A DNA stretch of 47,077 nucleotides from the NCBI GenBank assembly GCA_017516885.1, contig JAFXAR010000052.1:1-47077 (forward strand), written 5' to 3'. This document shows, piece by piece, positions 30,591 to 39,961 of the stretch. The notes under the pieces are model-generated. The model did no database searches. It was not told where the DNA came from and saw only the letters and a list, made by a program, of their open reading frames with translations. How positions within the stretch are numbered: position 1 is the stretch's first letter; each line of letters starts with the position of its first letter. The stretch comes from Bacteroidaceae bacterium. GTDB lineage: Bacteria > Bacteroidota > Bacteroidia > Bacteroidales > Bacteroidaceae. Made by a program: the position numbers and the translations under genes.

Positions 30591-32144
30591 TCAGCAGTCC
30601 AGTAAATTGCCGCGAGTATCATAATAATGACACGTTACAGAGCCATCATCACTCCACACTTCGCACACAAATATCCCCAAGTCATCAATATACAGAATAT
30701 CATCATACCTGGGTTTTACAACAACATTGCCGAAGGTGTCATAAATGCCGGTCATGAAGTTCCTCTTTTCAACACGGATGAAACCGCCGCGCAAGGGAGC
30801 AATCTCACTATAGGCGCATCTGAATATCATTTTGCCATTTTTATCATAAAGCCCGCATTTATAGGACTTGCGTGAATATTTATAAACAATAAACATTCCG
30901 TCACCACGCGTTTCTATATAATCATACCTGCACGGAACAACAGTATTGCCGGCTACGTCAACAATGCCATACTTTTCCCTTGCCATTCCTTCCTTGCAAA
31001 CCTCCATCATACCGCAGCCGTGGCGATAAATCACATCATCATACTTGCACGGCACAACCTCTCTGCCGCTCCTGTCAATGCATCCCGACTTGCCATCAAC
31101 GCACACAACAGCAAGCCCGTCGACAAAGCCAGTCACATAATCATACACAAAAGGAATGGCCTTGTTGTTATTATTGTCTATGAACCCCCATTTATTATCC
31201 ACGCACACGGCCGCAAGCCCCTCTGAATACCCCTCAGCATCATCATAGAGAAATGGGACAGCCTCACTGCCGTCTCTATTCAAAAAGCCCCACTTGCCGC
31301 CCGATTTCAACATCAGCAGACTATCTGAAACAGCTCTGCAGTCATCATATATACAAGGAACAACTTCCTTACCCGATTTGTCAATAAGGCCACATTTGCC
31401 ATTTATCTTAACTTCTGTAAAGCCATACAATAAATATCCTATCCAATCATACTTGCCACACGGCACAACTTCATTGCCCTGCCTGTCAATCACACCATAC
31501 CGCTGTTCCTCCCCACAGCCAAAAGCCACTTGAGCAAGACCATACACGAATGGAAAGGCGTAATCATATTTAAAAGGAATCACCTCCTTGCCTTGCATAT
31601 CAATATAACCATATTTGCCTGAAATGTCCGCTAAAGCCAAACCATCCGAAAAAATAAGTTCTGTATTATACACACAGGCAATAATCTCCTTGCCTTCGCC
31701 ATTGACTGCGCCCCATTTTCCATTGAGACACACCGTTGCAAGGCCATCATTGAATCTTAGTAAATAATCATATTTGCAGGGCACAACGACTTTTGCATCC
31801 TCATCAATCAATCCACATTTGCCATAAAGCATAACCGAAGCATAACCCTCATGAAAATCAGTAATGTAATCATATATGCAAGGCAACACCTCAACACCAC
31901 CGGCATCAATCAATCCCCATTTCTCGGTTTCAGCATCAATAACTCCTATATAAGGGTTACTCTCATAATAATCGAATTTGACATATTTTTTGGCAAGTTC
32001 CAACCGCCTCTCCAAAGGCAAATTCAATAATGGACACTTGGCATTGGGATTATAAATTCGGGTATAGTTCGCAGCGCAGCCGCAAACAGAATAGAACAGG
32101 CAGAAAACTGCAAGCAGAAACAAATTGCGTCCATTCACTTTCAT
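30591..32144 (-). CDS. WG-repeat lipoprotein
   Basis: 517 aa. Signal sequence with lipobox-like SVCGC. From residue ~60 to the end there are about twelve WG repeats, each near 37 residues, with cores such as KWGLID, KYGYID, RYGVID, KWGFID and KCGLYD followed by a (V/I)(P/L)C-Y-Y/D turn and an aromatic-glycine segment. WG-repeat proteins are secreted or surface-bound, of unknown binding partner. The ATG at 32144 opens directly on the signal; the longer open frame upstream overlaps the divergent sialidase leader. A TATCTTCG promoter element is at 32170-32177. The sialidase gene is divergent, 166 bp away. Confidence 0.8.
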   Translation of the reverse strand: MKVNGRNLFLLAVFCLFYSVCGCAANYTRIYNPNAKCPLLNLPLERRLELAKKYVKFDYYESNPYIGVIDAETEKWGLIDAGGVEVLPCIYDYITDFHEGYASVMLYGKCGLIDEDAKVVVPCKYDYLLRFNDGLATVCLNGKWGAVNGEGKEIIACVYNTELIFSDGLALADISGKYGYIDMQGKEVIPFKYDYAFPFVYGLAQVAFGCGEEQRYGVIDRQGNEVVPCGKYDWIGYLLYGFTEVKINGKCGLIDKSGKEVVPCIYDDCRAVSDSLLMLKSGGKWGFLNRDGSEAVPFLYDDAEGYSEGLAAVCVDNKWGFIDNNNNKAIPFVYDYVTGFVDGLAVVCVDGKSGCIDRSGREVVPCKYDDVIYRHGCGMMEVCKEGMAREKYGIVDVAGNTVVPCRYDYIETRGDGMFIVYKYSRKSYKCGLYDKNGKMIFRCAYSEIAPLRGGFIRVEKRNFMTGIYDTFGNVVVKPRYDDILYIDDLGIFVCEVWSDDGSVTCHYYDTRGNLLDC

Positions 32145-32310
32145 AGAAATATAGAAATTTTGCTTAAGGCGAAGATAACGCAAAGAACCGGCAAATACAA
32201 GACAAAAGGCCAATAACTTGAAATAATGCTTTTTTTTGCTTTTCTTTGTAAAGGAAAGTTCAAGAAGAACCACCCTAAAAACATACACATTGAAAACAAA
32301 ACAAAACAAT

Positions 32311-34344
32311 ATGAAAAACCTACGGTATCTTTTCCTTATTCTGCTTGCCACAGTTGGAGCAACAGCGAGCCTCGCCCAAGAGGGCATCTTTTCGGAATCG
32401 TTCAAAAAAGGCATTCCTGTACACTTAACCAATAACCGCGACAAGGCATACGCCATAAAGGCAGGCACAGCCGGCAATGCTGTAAAAAGCGCGAAGTCGG
32501 CCTACACTGCCGATGAAATATGGTATCTTGTAGGCAATGCCGACAGCTTTATAATGCAGAGCCGCACCATAGGCAAAAAGCATGCAGTGAAATTAGAGAG
32601 CAGCGAAAGCGGTGCAGCCGCAACTATAGTTCCTGTAAAAGAGGCCACGCCGCTCGCACTGACAAAACAGCAGGACGGCAGCTGCATAATATCTCCGGCA
32701 GCAGACAAGGGAAAGAGCTTTAACATGTTCGGAGGCGCAGGCCGAGACATTAAGCTCTATTCAAGCAGCGACGACGGCGGCCGCTGGAACATCACCCCAA
32801 TAGACCTGAGCCGCACGCTTGAGATAAAATACAGCATCAGCACCGATGGCGCTCTTGAAACAAACCACAAGATTGGCGAAATAGCCATAGCCATTAACGG
32901 CCGTGAAGGCGCAATAGAGCTTGACAGGAACAACATACCCGAAACTACAGTCTGCTATCTCCCCAAGGATGCCAAAGTGGCAATATCCTGCAAAAAGGCC
33001 TGCCATGGATGGAAAATGCTGGTAAACGGCAAAGAGGAGATTGCCGAACAGACACTCCCGGAGAAAGGCCTTGCCGTTAAGGCAGAAATCACTGCCGACA
33101 AGGATAACAGATACCAGTACCTCTTTTATTCTCCCGACGAAAAAGGCATCCCCTACCGCATCCCCGCCATTGTAACCACTGCCAACGGATATGTATTCGC
33201 AATCAACGACTACCGCCCTTGCGGCAATGACATCGGCTTCGGCGAGGTTGACCTCGTCATGCGCCACAGCACCAGAAGCGGCAGCGACTGGGACGGCCAT
33301 TCATGGAGCGAGCCAATAAAAATTGCCGACGGTTTAGGAAAAGAAGCTGCAGAAACCTGGCTCACAGGATTCGGCGACCCCGCAGTAGTTGCCGACCGCG
33401 AGCACAATGAGATTCTTGTAATGAGCGTATGCGGCAACCGCGTATGCTGGCACGGCAACTACGGTGCAGGAACAGCGGAGAACCCCGAAAACCCCAACCG
33501 CATGGCACGCCTGCGCATAAAATATGACGAGGCAAAAGGAGAATGGATTGCCGGCGAGCCCGAAGAGGTAACATACGACATCTACCCTCTTTTCAAGGAC
33601 AAGAGCGGAAAGGCGCACGTTGGCTCAATGTTCATTGGCGCGGGCCGCATTGCGCAGAGCAGCATGATTAAGGTGGGCGAATATTACCGCATATATTGCG
33701 CAGTGTGGGCAGTTGAAGCCGGAAGCTACCGCCACCACAACTACGCCCTCTACTCCGACGACTTTGGCGAAACATGGCATCTGCTTGGAGAACTCGGCAA
33801 CGACTTTAACGACAGCCCCGCGCCCTACGGCAACGAGCCTAAATGCGAGGAACTGCCCGACGGAAGCGTACTCTTGAGCAGCCGCAAAGGCTACGGACGC
33901 TACTTCAACGTGTTCCATTATACAAACTTTGAAAAGGCCGAAGGTTACTGGGACGGCGCAGTTTCAACCGACCAGGCAGGCGACCTCAAGTTCGGCAGGA
34001 ACGACACTAACGGCGAGCCTCTCCGCATAGGCAATCTGCTATTCCAGTCAGTACCCACCGGCGAAAGCCGCAGCGACGTTGCAATCTTCTACAGACTGCT
34101 GAGCGATGACCCGGCCACATACACCCCTGCTGAACTATCAAAGGGGTGGAAGAAAATCAAGGTTTCCGACCGCGGTTCGGCCTATTCGTCAATGTGCATT
34201 CTGCCCGACGGCAACATTGGCATATATTACGAGGAAGAGCCAGGCGGCTATTCAATGGTATACGTTCCAATAATTATCAAAGAGGCCGTTGACGAAGAGA
34301 CATACAGGCAGTTCAAGAGCAGCTGCCACCCATGCCAGGAATAA
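32311..34344 (+). CDS. GH33 exo-alpha-sialidase, secreted
   Basis: 677 aa. Signal peptide (hydrophobic 5-20) cut after SLAQ. Residues ~25-270 are a beta-rich N-terminal region with two lectin-like parts. The catalytic beta-propeller starts with YRIPAIV (arginine of the triad), then DYRPCGNDIGFGEVDLVMR with the acidic residues, an Asp-box SDDFGETWHL, and later SSRKGYGRYFNV and DRGSAYSSMCILPDGNIG. Bacteroidales sialidases release sialic acid from mucin and host glycans, acting in the periplasm or at the surface. No sialic-acid uptake genes are adjacent. Strong terminator at 34362-34409. Confidence 0.85.
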   Translation: MKNLRYLFLILLATVGATASLAQEGIFSESFKKGIPVHLTNNRDKAYAIKAGTAGNAVKSAKSAYTADEIWYLVGNADSFIMQSRTIGKKHAVKLESSESGAAATIVPVKEATPLALTKQQDGSCIISPAADKGKSFNMFGGAGRDIKLYSSSDDGGRWNITPIDLSRTLEIKYSISTDGALETNHKIGEIAIAINGREGAIELDRNNIPETTVCYLPKDAKVAISCKKACHGWKMLVNGKEEIAEQTLPEKGLAVKAEITADKDNRYQYLFYSPDEKGIPYRIPAIVTTANGYVFAINDYRPCGNDIGFGEVDLVMRHSTRSGSDWDGHSWSEPIKIADGLGKEAAETWLTGFGDPAVVADREHNEILVMSVCGNRVCWHGNYGAGTAENPENPNRMARLRIKYDEAKGEWIAGEPEEVTYDIYPLFKDKSGKAHVGSMFIGAGRIAQSSMIKVGEYYRIYCAVWAVEAGSYRHHNYALYSDDFGETWHLLGELGNDFNDSPAPYGNEPKCEELPDGSVLLSSRKGYGRYFNVFHYTNFEKAEGYWDGAVSTDQAGDLKFGRNDTNGEPLRIGNLLFQSVPTGESRSDVAIFYRLLSDDPATYTPAELSKGWKKIKVSDRGSAYSSMCILPDGNIGIYYEEEPGGYSMVYVPIIIKEAVDEETYRQFKSSCHPCQE

Positions 34345-35567: not shown

Positions 35568-37844
35568 TTATTTAGTAACAGGGCGCACGCTTCGGCCGTT
35601 GTAACGGGTGTACCAATTCGTGCTATGGTTACCACTGCTGAAGTACAGGTAGCACGCGTTGTCGGAATAACTCTCACGAGGCGTAGAACTCCAGTAGTAA
35701 CCGAAAGCCCCCTGGTTGTTAAGCGACGAACCATTACGCCAACCGGCAGCAGGAAAGAAGATGCTGTTGCCGTTCTTCTTGCTGGTTACCTTGCAGCCTT
35801 TTATACCGTTCTGTGTTGTCCATGTCCAGGTGCAGTTGCTGAGCAGTTCCTCAAACTCGGCCTTGGTGGGCAGGCGCCAGGTGCTGCCCCACTGCTTGCG
35901 GGCGACGTCATCTGAGAGTTCAAGCTTCCTTTTGTTGTCTACACGGCCATAGGAGCTGTTACTGCAATATTTTGTTATTTTGTCATATGAACCGTTACAC
36001 CATTTGTAGGTTGACCAGCTGTAATCCTCCTTGGTGCTGGTTTCGCCCCAGGCGTAGTGGTTGCCGTACTCTTCGGGCTTGCTTGCGCCTACATTGCAGG
36101 TGGCCCACTTGAGCCCGCTGGGCAAGCCTAAGTCAACATATTCGTGGCCGTTGATGGTGTTTTTATTTTGCGGCTGGGGCTTTGGCTTGGCTGTAAGGGT
36201 TAGGTTTATTGTCGCTGCCTGGCTGGTGAAGGTGTAGGTGTGCTCAAAGGTTTCGTAGCCTGTCTTTTTTACCATTATTTTATGAGTGCCTTGTTCAACC
36301 TTATAGCCGCTGATATATGATGTTCCAATATAACTGCCGTCTACATAAACTGATGCGCCGGTAGGATTAGTGCTTAAATTGAGCAATACGGTACTCTTTT
36401 TAATGTTTACGTCTATTGCAGCTGATTGACTATTGAAGATGTGGGTTTTCTCGTAGGTTTCATAACCTTCCTTCACTACCTTTATGGCGTGCTCGCCAAT
36501 GGAAATGGTTGCGTCTTTTAATGGTGTTTTGTCAAAGTATTTGCCGTCTACATATACATATGCGCCATTGGGCGCGCCTTTGATTTTAAGCTGGGTGGTT
36601 TGCTCTGCGGCGGGTTCTTCGGAAACTGTTTGCTGCAGTGGGGCTATTGTGTCTTTTTTATCGGTTTGTATGGTTGGAGTGTCTGCTTTTTGTGCAATTT
36701 GCTGTGCGGTGTCTTTAACACTGTCTCTTTTCACATCACCACCGCTGCCAAAGAGCATAAAGCCGCCCACCGTACCGCATATAATGGCAAGCAGGATTAT
36801 TATCCAAAGCCATTTGCTTTTCTTTTGGTTCTCTTCGGGCTGAGGTCTTGGTGCAGGCTCTGGGGCAACAGAGGGTGTTTCAACAACTTCAACTTCTATT
36901 TCATTTTCCTCAACTGCAGCGTTGCCGTTTGCTGTATTTTGGCCTGTTCCTGTTTTATCAATCGCAACTTCTGTCTCTTCGCTGCCTACTATTACATCTT
37001 GATTTTCCAACAACGCAATAAATTCTTTAACGCTCTGCGGGCGGCTGGATATTGCGGGCTGCATGGCGCTTTTTACCGCATTCCACGTTGATGCTGATAC
37101 ATTTGCCGGGCATGCGGGGAACGGCGCTGATACGAGGTCCATTGCATCGGCGGGGCGATTGTCTGTCAGCAGCCTGTAGAGGGTTGCGCCAAGCGAGTAG
37201 ATGTCGGTGGCGGGAGAAAAACTGCTTACGCCGCCGGCCTTGTACTGCTCCAGCGGGGCGTAGCCGTGGCTGATGCCCACAGGGGTGGTGCTGGTCTGGT
37301 GGCCGGCCTCGTCGTACTGCTTTGCAAGGCCAAAGTCTATGACTATGGCGTTGTCCTCACTGTCAAGAAGTATGTTGCCGGGCTTGATGTCGAGGTGCAT
37401 CATGTGTCGGCCGTGGATGAAGCCTATTGCCGATGCTATCTGTCGTATGTAGCGCAGAGCCTTTTCTTCGCTGAGTGCGGTGCAGGACGACAGGCTGCCG
37501 CCGCCAAAATACTTCATCACATAATAGGCTGTGCCGTTCTCCTCAAACACGTCAATTATAGGAACTATGTGTTTATGCTCAAGGGAGGCGATGCTGCGGG
37601 CCTCTTTCAGGAACTTCTGACGAAAGCGCTCAACAAGTTCCTTGCTGCCTACAGAGGGCACGGAAACATGCGAGCCGTCATCATCGCGGTTGCAGAGGTC
37701 TTTCATAAAGAACTCCTTGATTGCAACCTTGCGGCCAAGGGATGTCTGCTCGGCAAGGTATGTTATGCCAAATCCGCCCTGGCCAAGAATGCCAAGTATG
37801 CGGTATTTCCCATTCTGAAGTTCCTTTCCTGTATTTAGTTCCAT
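35568..37844 (-). CDS. receptor-like Ser/Thr kinase with two PEGA domains and a DGR-diversified FISUMP domain
   Basis: 758 aa. Kinase domain 14-280: glycine loop GQGGFG (21-26), Lys43, catalytic HLDIKPGN (Asp152), DFG 170-172. An acidic/Pro linker leads to one membrane helix (~345-366). Outside follow two PEGA domains (~419-480 and 487-550) and a FISUMP domain (565-758), a C-type-lectin-like fold. The kinase should be cytoplasmic and the rest periplasmic. The final 175 bp (35579-35753) are a DGR-type variable region; variable residues lie between 704 and 751. It follows its paralogue by 68 bp on the same strand, probably co-transcribed. The ligand and phosphorylation targets are unknown. No phosphatase is adjacent. 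Confidence 0.88.
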   Translation of the reverse strand: MELNTGKELQNGKYRILGILGQGGFGITYLAEQTSLGRKVAIKEFFMKDLCNRDDDGSHVSVPSVGSKELVERFRQKFLKEARSIASLEHKHIVPIIDVFEENGTAYYVMKYFGGGSLSSCTALSEEKALRYIRQIASAIGFIHGRHMMHLDIKPGNILLDSEDNAIVIDFGLAKQYDEAGHQTSTTPVGISHGYAPLEQYKAGGVSSFSPATDIYSLGATLYRLLTDNRPADAMDLVSAPFPACPANVSASTWNAVKSAMQPAISSRPQSVKEFIALLENQDVIVGSEETEVAIDKTGTGQNTANGNAAVEENEIEVEVVETPSVAPEPAPRPQPEENQKKSKWLWIIILLAIICGTVGGFMLFGSGGDVKRDSVKDTAQQIAQKADTPTIQTDKKDTIAPLQQTVSEEPAAEQTTQLKIKGAPNGAYVYVDGKYFDKTPLKDATISIGEHAIKVVKEGYETYEKTHIFNSQSAAIDVNIKKSTVLLNLSTNPTGASVYVDGSYIGTSYISGYKVEQGTHKIMVKKTGYETFEHTYTFTSQAATINLTLTAKPKPQPQNKNTINGHEYVDLGLPSGLKWATCNVGASKPEEYGNHYAWGETSTKEDYSWSTYKWCNGSYDKITKYCSNSSYGRVDNKRKLELSDDVARKQWGSTWRLPTKAEFEELLSNCTWTWTTQNGIKGCKVTSKKNGNSIFFPAAGWRNGSSLNNQGAFGYYWSSTPRESYSDNACYLYFSSGNHSTNWYTRYNGRSVRPVTK
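35579..35753 (-). other. DGR-like variable region VR1
   Basis: Compared base by base with 37930-38104, all differences fall in 17 codons (35593-35734). 24 of 25 are in codon positions 1 or 2; on the sense strand adenine is present in one of the two copies in 22 of 25. Third positions and all other codons are identical apart from one AAC/GAA pair. The 3' end AGCGTGCGCCCTGT is identical, GC-rich and marks the end of similarity, as expected for an initiation-of-mutagenic-homing-like site. No template repeat is present here. Confidence 0.88.
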
Positions 37845-37912
37845 AGTGCTATTGTTGTAAAGTTTCTAAGAAGCTGCCCCAAAAGACAGAGAAAGCATGT
37901 CATTTCAACAAA

Positions 37913-39961
37913 TCATTCGTTATCAATTACAGGGCGCACGCTTTGGCCGTCGTTACGGTCGCTCCAATTCGTGAAATGGCTATCACTGTCGAAGTACAGG
38001 TAGCACGCTTCGCTGGAAAGACTCTCACGAGGCGTAGAACTCCAGTAGTAACCGTCAGTCCCCTGGTAGTTAAGCGACGTACCACTACGCCAACCGGCAG
38101 CAGGGAGGAAGATGCTGTTGCCGTTCTTCTTGCTGGTTACTTTGTAACCTTCTACTCCGTTCTGAGTTGTCCAGGTCCAGGTGCAGTTATTTTCATTGCA
38201 CAGTTCGTCAAACTCGGCTTTGGTGGGCAAGCGCCAGCTGCTGCCCCACTCATTGCAGGCAACGTCGTAGGTGGGGTAGCCGCCTATGTCGCTGAAGTTC
38301 TTGCCGTAGGTTACGCTGTTACCTGAACTGTAATTGCTCTTGGTAGAGATTTCGCCCCAGGCGTAGTGGTTGCCGTAACCTTGGGGCTTGCTTGCGCCTA
38401 CATTGCAGGTGGCCCATTTTACGCTTAGGCCTAAGTCTACATATTCGTGGCCGTTGATTTTGCCTTTGGAGGATATTGTTTCTTGTGGCTGTGGTTTTGC
38501 TTTGGCTGCAAGGTTCACAGTTATTGCTGCTGCATGGCTGTTGAATGTGTGTTTTTTCTCGTAGGTTTCATAACCGTCTTTTGCTACCTTTATGGTGTGC
38601 TCGCCAATGGAAATGGTTGCGCCTTTTAATGGTGTTTCATCAAAGTATTTGCCGTCTACATATACGTTTGCGCCGTCAGGTGCTCCATTTATTTTAAGTT
38701 GGGCAGTTTGCTCAACTTCGGGTTCTGCAGGGACTATTTGCTTCAGCGGGGTTATTGTATCTTTTTTATCGGTTTGTATGGTTGGAGTGTCTGCTTTTTG
38801 TGCAATTTGCCCTGCGGTCTCTTTGGCGCTGTCTTTCTTTATATCGCTGCCGCCGCCAAAGAGCATAAAGCCGACTGCTGCACCGCATATTATAAGCAAC
38901 AGCAAAATTACTATCCAAAGACCTTTTCCGCTCTTTTTCTCTTTTGGGCGGTTAGAGTTTTCTGCCTGTTTTGGAGTAACAGAGGGAGTTTCTGCAACTT
39001 CTGTAGCAATTTCTTCCTCTGCAACAGCATTATTACTGCCGCTTGCAATCTTTTGGCCTGTTCCCATTGAAAGGCTGGTTGCATCGCTCTCAAATTTTGT
39101 CTCTTTACTTTCCACTAACCTCAAGAATTCCCCAACGCTCTGCGGACGTCTGCCTATTGCAGGCTGCATGGCAGCTTCAACAGCTGAACGGACTGAAGCT
39201 GAAATGCCTTCAGGGAGTTCGGGAAGCCCGAAGTTCATAACTTCGCTTGCCTTTGGCGGGCGTGTGCCGGTCAAAAGGAAAAAGAGCGTTGCACCGAGGG
39301 CGTAGATGTCGGTTACCGGGGTAAAGGTTTTCAGCGCTCCTGCCTCATATTGCTCAAGCGGGGCATAGCCCTCGCTGATGCCTATTCCGGCGCTGCTGGT
39401 CTGAGAACCGCTCTCGTCGTAATGCTTGGAGATTCCGAAGTCTATAAGTACGGCATTTCCGTTTTTACCCAACATTATGTTTGCCGGCTTTACATCAAGA
39501 TGAAGAAGATTGGAGGCATGAACTTCCTTTAGCGCCTTGCCGACTTGGCATATATATTTTACGGCCAATGCTTCGGGAAGTGCGCCGTTCTCGTCAACAA
39601 GCGCCTTTAGGCTTTTGCCTTCAAGGTACTCCATAACGTAGTATGCTGTGCCGTTCTCCTCAAATACGTCGTGAATCTTTATTATGTGGGAATTTCCAAA
39701 AGAGGCTATCAGGCGGGCCTCTTTCAGGAACTTCTGCTTGAAGCGCTCAACCAAGTCCTTGCTGCCTACCGAAGGGACTGAGACAAATGAACTGGTTTCA
39801 TCGCGGTTGCAGAGGTCTTTCATGAAGAACTCCTTGATTGCCACCTTGCGGCAAAGGGCCGTTTGCTCGGCAAGGTAAGTTATACCAAAGCCGCCCTGGC
39901 CAAGAATGCCAAGTATGCGGTATTTCCCATTCTGAAGTTCTTTTCCTGTATTTAGTTCCAT
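37913..39961 (-). CDS. receptor-like Ser/Thr kinase with one PEGA domain and a DGR-diversified FISUMP domain
   Basis: 682 aa paralogue of the product of 35568-37844. The first ~50 residues are almost identical; the kinase has Lys43, catalytic HLDVKPAN, DFG as IDFGIS. Then a linker, one membrane helix (~347-368), one PEGA domain (~421-485, against two in the paralogue) and the FISUMP domain. The last 175 bp of similarity (37930-38104) form the second variable region, with variable residues 626-673. The kinase and linker have diverged by ordinary substitutions, while the variable region differs only in the adenine-type pattern. It is the first gene of the pair; TATATTCG near 39988 may be its -7 element. 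Confidence 0.88.
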   Translation of the reverse strand: MELNTGKELQNGKYRILGILGQGGFGITYLAEQTALCRKVAIKEFFMKDLCNRDETSSFVSVPSVGSKDLVERFKQKFLKEARLIASFGNSHIIKIHDVFEENGTAYYVMEYLEGKSLKALVDENGALPEALAVKYICQVGKALKEVHASNLLHLDVKPANIMLGKNGNAVLIDFGISKHYDESGSQTSSAGIGISEGYAPLEQYEAGALKTFTPVTDIYALGATLFFLLTGTRPPKASEVMNFGLPELPEGISASVRSAVEAAMQPAIGRRPQSVGEFLRLVESKETKFESDATSLSMGTGQKIASGSNNAVAEEEIATEVAETPSVTPKQAENSNRPKEKKSGKGLWIVILLLLIICGAAVGFMLFGGGSDIKKDSAKETAGQIAQKADTPTIQTDKKDTITPLKQIVPAEPEVEQTAQLKINGAPDGANVYVDGKYFDETPLKGATISIGEHTIKVAKDGYETYEKKHTFNSHAAAITVNLAAKAKPQPQETISSKGKINGHEYVDLGLSVKWATCNVGASKPQGYGNHYAWGEISTKSNYSSGNSVTYGKNFSDIGGYPTYDVACNEWGSSWRLPTKAEFDELCNENNCTWTWTTQNGVEGYKVTSKKNGNSIFLPAAGWRSGTSLNYQGTDGYYWSSTPRESLSSEACYLYFDSDSHFTNWSDRNDGQSVRPVIDNE
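37930..38104 (-). other. DGR-like variable region VR2
   Basis: Partner of the variable region at 35579-35753. Similarity on the 5' side turns ordinary just beyond CCTGCTGCCGG (TTT versus CTC, then synonymous changes) and on the 3' side ends after CCCTGT, so the edited block has sharp limits. Variable codons include AGC, GAC, TTC, AAC and TAC, all reachable from AAC by changing adenine only. Confidence 0.88.

Follow-up and report, generated by a model that had tools for sequence, protein, structure and literature searches.

Two neighbouring genes on a 47,077-nucleotide contig of a Bacteroidaceae bacterium (JAFXAR010000052.1; this whole stretch of DNA is the window referred to below) raise the question of how the 3' ends of two receptor-like Ser/Thr kinase genes, A and B, come to differ almost exclusively at first and second codon positions, and what a variable end would do on a kinase. 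The earlier note, made from the letters of the window, took both ends for outputs of a diversity-generating retroelement (DGR). The DGR of phage BPP-1 combines a reverse transcriptase (RT), Avd, a template repeat (TR), changes at template adenines and a C-type lectin target, as here; unlike here, it serves a single target, a phage tail fibre.

The kinases of the window and their variable ends

Kinases A and B are neighbours on the minus strand (Table 1). Pfam places Pkinase (1.8e-35), PEGA (4.5e-26) and, at 34.7 bits against a cut-off of 34.9, Lcl_C (2.5e-8) on A, which also matches the NCBIfam FISUMP model TIGR02145 below its cut-off; the matches of B are Pkinase (3e-34), PEGA (2.5e-12) and Lcl_C (2.6e-6, below cut-off). 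Both proteins combine the catalytic motifs with a single hydrophobic helix, called from hydropathy only, between the kinase domain and the remainder, i.e., the features of transmembrane (TM) Hanks-type Ser/Thr kinases. This helix supports the earlier description of the proteins as receptor-like; with such a topology, the variable domain would lie in the periplasm rather than on the outside of the cell. A structure model of the variable domain, made for B, resembles C-type lectins, and both variable regions (VRs) of the window lie at the 3' end of a gene for a protein of this predicted fold; a profile of the domain gave 0 matches against the sequences of solved structures. Genes for CinA, TsaD and ribulose-phosphate epimerase are close by, and positions 30591-32477 of the window encode a 628-aa protein with ten WG-repeat stretches (PF14903).

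Table 1. Features of the two kinase genes, in window coordinates
Feature	Position	Strand	Remarks
Receptor-like Ser/Thr kinase A, 758 aa	35568..37844	-	kinase, TM helix, PEGA, FISUMP/Lcl_C C-type-lectin-like domain
Kinase domain of A	37146..37805	-	HxDxKxxN and DFG motifs present
Predicted TM helix of A, residues 346-364	36753..36809	-	hydropathy 2.53, KKSK just before
FISUMP/Lcl_C (DUF1566) domain of A	35571..36155	-	Pfam and NCBIfam matches
VR1 copy of A, DGR-type variable region	35579..35753	-	3' end of gene
Receptor-like Ser/Thr kinase B, 682 aa	37913..39961	-	architecture as in A
Kinase domain of B	39248..39922	-	HxDxKxxN and DFG motifs present
Predicted TM helix of B, residues 350-368	38858..38914	-	hydropathy 3.06
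FISUMP/Lcl_C domain of B	37916..38458	-	domain used for structure model
VR1 copy of B, DGR-type variable region	37930..38104	-	3' end of gene

The two variable regions lie exactly where the earlier note had placed them, and a recount of the pair returns the same figures: 25 differences in 175 bp, confined to 17 codons, 24 of them at codon positions 1 or 2. The similarity was said to end abruptly, which holds on the 3' side, after a GC-rich block; on the 5' side it continues into the rest of the paralogous domain.

Adenine columns among the copies in the genome

The window's own genome (2.31 Mb in 75 contigs, 86.8% complete) yields 17 blastn matches to the variable region, 13 of them close; these 13 are termed VR1, and the four distant or short matches (C54, C71a, C71b, C21) are left out of every VR1 count. 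The reading frame is open to its stop in 13/13 copies. Nine VR1 genes encode intact kinases with catalytic motifs, and a tenth kinase, C7, is truncated at the edge of its contig; a TM helix is predicted between kinase and VR in nine of these ten (eight of the nine intact ones, plus C7), the kinase without one being C49. C16 is a VR1 protein without a kinase, its N-terminus signal-like by eye. The C1b gene is cut at a contig end, and what is visible of its protein is similar to C16; the C58b gene is cut close to its VR. Contig ends carry several of the genome's VR copies.

The signal first noticed in the window pair, adenine in one of the two copies, discriminates weakly: adenine is present in either copy at 70% of pairwise VR1 differences vs 64% in the upstream 110 bp used as control. 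Codon positions are more telling. Pairwise differences fall at positions 1, 2 and 3 in the ratio 772/668/158 within VR1 and 138/151/401 in the upstream 110 bp, and third-position divergence is 5.0% vs 24.1% (C48 and C56 are left out of this comparison, except in its 13-copy version, and C7 is left out of the upstream control).

The columns themselves can be sorted by a real template, the TR of a congener, G019. When a column is called variable if at least two of 11 copies (C48 and C56 left out) carry a minority base, 43/57 template-adenine columns vary vs 3/116 others (odds ratio 116, p 9e-25); pairwise, the same 11 copies differ at 44% in adenine columns and 3.1% in other columns. A template predicted from the VRs alone, before the G019 TR had been seen, had 52 adenines in the 173 bases compared, and 51/52 are adenine in the real template, which has 57. 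Ten of the 13 copies, both window copies included, depart from the consensus 0-2 times in 112-113 non-adenine columns and are non-A at 22-31 of 55-57 adenine columns. Non-adenine departures are more numerous in C7 (7), C56 (5) and C48 (15), so that some targets look old.

Within the window pair, 22 of the 25 difference sites are adenine in the G019 template, among them the T/G, T/C and G/T sites, all three of which the earlier note had read as mutated from A in both copies. The other sites lie at offsets 45 (G/A), 95 (C/A) and 121 (G/A). The template of this species could have A at offset 45, a codon position 1; the changes at offset 95, the sole third-position change, and at offset 121 look like ordinary ones. 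Against the TR of the congener, the window VRs mismatch at template adenines, and the alignments show that the window copies vary at the same adenine columns as the relatives' template.

A further variable region follows VR1 in five proteins (C1b, C1c, C16, C58a, C58b), which end in an FGE-sulfatase domain with a variable end, VR2. The sixth VR2 copy of the genome, in C8, accompanies FISUMP domains that are not close VR1 copies. With a column called variable if it differs in at least one of the six copies, 29/31 adenine columns of a template from G474 vary vs 16/77 others (p 1e-12), and 27/28 vs 18/77 (p 4e-12) for a template from G470; both genomes are described below. At least two of the five proteins with both regions are kinases (C1c, L010; C58a, L015), and C8 (L113), its gene cut at the start, is a kinase with VR2. 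VR1 and VR2 differ in sequence, which implies two templates. Further, weaker VR2 matches among 44 genomes of the genus occur only in G036.

Two local features accompany some VR1 copies. A perfect hairpin (stem 11-14, loop 3) starts 4-7 bases past VR1 in C74, C49, C7, C56 and C48, and its pattern was seen nowhere else in the 15 sources from this genome that were scanned. In this it is reminiscent of BPP-1, whose VR has a hairpin downstream. As a required target signal it was rejected: it is present in 5/13 close copies and, being absent after both VRs of the window, is not general. In C7 (L017), part of the VR start (PAAGWRDSKKNDKIIFQPAAGWRNG) is duplicated ahead of the VR, which may be a by-product of homing or recombination.

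Templates, reverse transcriptases and kinase targets in relatives

The earlier note proposed a search of the genome for an RT with a matching template. Neither was found in the 86.8%-complete assembly; both were found in congeners G019 and G037. For the RT, an RVT_1 profile search and tblastn with the G019 RT plus TR reading frame were used, the latter matching VR-type regions only. The sole RVT_1 match of the genome, C41, was rejected as a DGR RT, its motifs IKQGCAVS and YVRYSDD being unlike those of the DGR RTs found in relatives. No template repeat outside target genes was recognised among the 17 own-genome matches, and Avd gave no match in a search whose control gave no match either.

An RVT_1 search of the 44 genus genomes finds a match in 18. 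Among 24 RT loci scanned with a custom motif pattern, which may miss other DGR RTs, two, in G019 and G037, combine LPIGNLSSQ or LPIGNLTSQ with YVDD; G004 and G005 encode relatives of the G019 RT at 32-33% identity. Gene order in G019 and G037 is accessory ORF, Avd-like ORF, TR, RT. The G019 cassette lies on a 3.4-kb contig, and its TR shows 93 mismatches to its four VRs, 92 of them at template A; none of the four targets is a kinase within the parts seen. The G019 Avd matches NF033474 (1.4e-12) and bAvd (4e-7), both below cut-off, and Avd in G037 and in G382, a genome of another genus of the family, is assigned from place and likeness only. The TR of G019 (L063:1000-2478), G037 (L072) and G382 (L248) lies in frame within the 5' end of a 492-498-aa RT frame; if the first start is used, an Asn-rich peptide would be translated fused to the RT. 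Asn-rich template-like stretches of a different FISUMP-like type lie near RTs in G038 and G004 (L067, L074, L135).

Across the family, 47/399 genomes match the G019-type RT at E 1e-10 or better, and a kinase search in ten genomes with such an RT gives a match at E 1e-20 or better in four. A kinase VR matches a template of its own genome in three genomes, G382, G470 and G474, and in G382 and G470 the RT, the TR and the matching kinase lie in one cassette. The G382 cassette has the order kinase, accessory, Avd-like ORF, TR, RT, and its TR and kinase VR show 20 mismatches in 183 bp, 20/20 at template A; another contig encodes a second kinase, which has 20 template-A differences plus 4 non-A ones and a 3-base insertion. 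The cassette of G470 (Bacteroidaceae MAG RGIG6483, sheep rectum) comprises a TM kinase with an FGE-sulfatase domain, an HRDC protein, the RT and the TR, and 13/13 kinase mismatches fall at template A over 105 bp. Beside the G382 cassette are ORFs that we take to be infC-like and L20-like; the HRDC-domain protein of the FGE-type cassette (L258:2884-3471; 5.8e-13) is encoded between kinase and RT.

In G474 (Muribaculaceae MAG RGIG3578, goat rumen), a kinase-FGE protein without a predicted TM helix is encoded on a contig apart from the RT. Its mismatches fall 12/12 at template A over the 3' 96 bp, a boundary chosen after seeing the alignment; over the full 111 bp there are 18 differences, 4 of them not at template A. 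A secreted-type FGE protein adjoining the RT gives 16/16 at template A over the same 3' 96 bp.

Four further genomes were considered. G060, G181 and G246 combine an RT of this family with kinases of this kind; the compared stretches of RT locus and kinase do not match, these kinases were rejected as targets, and the G246 RT has no visible TR-VR repeat. SIG154 (G468) has four kinase VRs that are adenine-patterned by eye; its RT was rejected as their writer, blastn of the 9 kb taken showing no kinase template.

Taken as alignments of sequence, the pairs from relatives show that target genes received copies of a template repeat altered at its adenines, and that Ser/Thr kinases are among these targets. 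The reading of the window regions as DGR outputs gains its support from this template-A-specific variation in genomes with real templates and from the kinase targets in three of them.

Origin of the variable ends and their likely use

Judged from sequence, the window regions are very probably variable repeats, i.e., remote targets, of a cell-encoded DGR. A DGR RT, probably with Avd, would be encoded in the part of the genome that is missing from the assembly, together with the TR, and would make adenine-mutated cDNA that overwrites the 3' ends of at least 13 genes. With every rewrite, a C-type-lectin-like domain would have its binding face randomised anew; a second domain, in six genes of which five also have VR1, would be rewritten from another template, of FGE-sulfatase type. 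The lectin-like domain of most of the kinases would be held in the periplasm by a single TM helix, positively charged on its N-terminal flank, and binding there would set the activity of the cytoplasmic kinase.

Could the same pattern arise with no RT, by gene conversion between the paralogous FISUMP domains in combination with diversifying selection? The copies do form a paralogous family with a shared domain, and conversion can keep third positions alike while selection acts on codon positions 1-2; selection, however, has no reason to track template adenines, as the 43/57 vs 3/116 columns do, and the TR-VR pairs of relatives, with 20/20, 13/13, 12/12 and 92/93 mismatches at A, make this origin highly improbable. 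It is unlikely, if somewhat less so, that the regions are relics which only decay after the strain has lost the DGR that wrote them. Such a loss would fit the RT and TR not being found in the assembly and the additional non-A changes of C48, C7 and C56, but ten of the 13 copies, both window copies included, have 0-2 changes in 112-113 non-A columns, so that writing was recent; moreover, the assembly is 86.8% complete and in 75 contigs, several VR copies are at contig ends, and the G019 cassette sits on a 3.4-kb contig, a kind that binning may lose. A phage origin was considered and rejected: the G019 RT has no close relative in viral contigs, a 29-base template string is found in 0 of them, the 96 phage records that match the RT stay below 60% identity (37.9% at best among the matches listed), and the surroundings of the window kinases include CinA, TsaD and ribulose-phosphate epimerase genes.

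The use of a DGR-written domain is a separate matter. The domain may choose substrates or partners, or act as a decoy, and sense no ligand; choice of substrate is an alternative proposed for cyanobacterial DGR kinases in the part of the source at hand (PMC7517822), and for two kinases, C49 and that of G474, no TM helix is predicted. Against this use, which we regard as a minority possibility, a single TM helix lies between kinase and VR in nine of the ten VR1 kinases (C7 counted) and would keep the VR apart from cytoplasmic substrates. Ligand sensing by the variable domain is preferred because of this topology and is held to be somewhat probable. About ten receptor kinases might then form a rewritable sensor array, in which two DGR templates rewrite FISUMP and FGE modules and at least two kinases with both modules act as combinatorial two-site receptors feeding kinase signalling; the chances of this fuller picture seem to us evenly balanced.

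To our knowledge, what cellular DGR targets recognise, and with what consequences, is mostly unknown. Recognition by hypervariable proteins of putative defence systems is similarly little known, as far as the accessible text of one report goes (PMC8008677). A kinase output makes recognition by a DGR target accessible to a phosphorylation assay, and the bacterium is probably rewriting its own receptors. As far as we know, discussion of anticipatory receptor diversification has so far centred on phage tail fibres, adhesins and multicellular bacteria, and Bacteroidales are not multicellular; the present loci suggest such diversification wired into the transmembrane signalling of animal-gut Bacteroidales.

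DGR-diversified kinases as such are already known from cyanobacteria; what looks new is their occurrence as transmembrane proteins in gut Bacteroidales, in some cases with VRs of two kinds. A search of the open-licence PMC literature returned no paper joining DGR, kinase, transmembrane and Bacteroidales, weak evidence given its restriction to open licences. The available part of the cyanobacterial work describes Ser/Thr kinase variable proteins, mostly predicted to be cytosolic and some TM or secreted, that resemble the present ones in a C-terminal C-type-lectin VR on a Hanks-type Ser/Thr kinase and in having many remote targets (PMC7517822). By contrast, nine of the ten VR1 kinases here have a predicted TM helix, the lectin-like domain is FISUMP/Lcl_C or FGE and the host belongs to Bacteroidales. 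A global DGR survey reports a TM domain or signal peptide in most cellular target clusters, and the word kinase occurs 0 times in its main text, the part available (PMC8144416).

Diversified putative sensors are also described for Thiohalocapsa PB-PSB1, with Pkinase in the domain list of a figure legend; in the excerpts at hand, some targets have multiple VRs and some VRs are predicted to be periplasmic, as here (PMC10907252). Those DGRs are tied to ternary or STAND conflict systems, whereas the present targets are single-gene kinases, and in the window housekeeping genes lie close to them; where one protein carries two VRs, these represent distinct sequence families, which implies two templates. 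DUF1566, Fib_succ_major and FGE-sulfatase are DGR target domains in human microbiomes (PMC4159848), variable domain families identical to those found here; the main text of that paper, the portion consulted, has kinase 0 times, while here kinases end in these domains, and a single protein can have both. Stenotrophomonas sp. SKA14 shares two templates and many targets per genome: its DGR has two TRs and six VRs, five of the latter in DUF1566 proteins, but these VRs lie in separate ORFs, and kinase appears 0 times in the main text, the extent of the source used (PMC6642488). A kinase fold joined to a DGR-type lectin is also found in phages, where, according to the accessible text, a CotH-family kinase is fused to a hypervariable lectin (PMC8008677); that fusion is phage-borne, whereas the kinases of the present genome are of the PF00069 family and lie in chromosomal surroundings.
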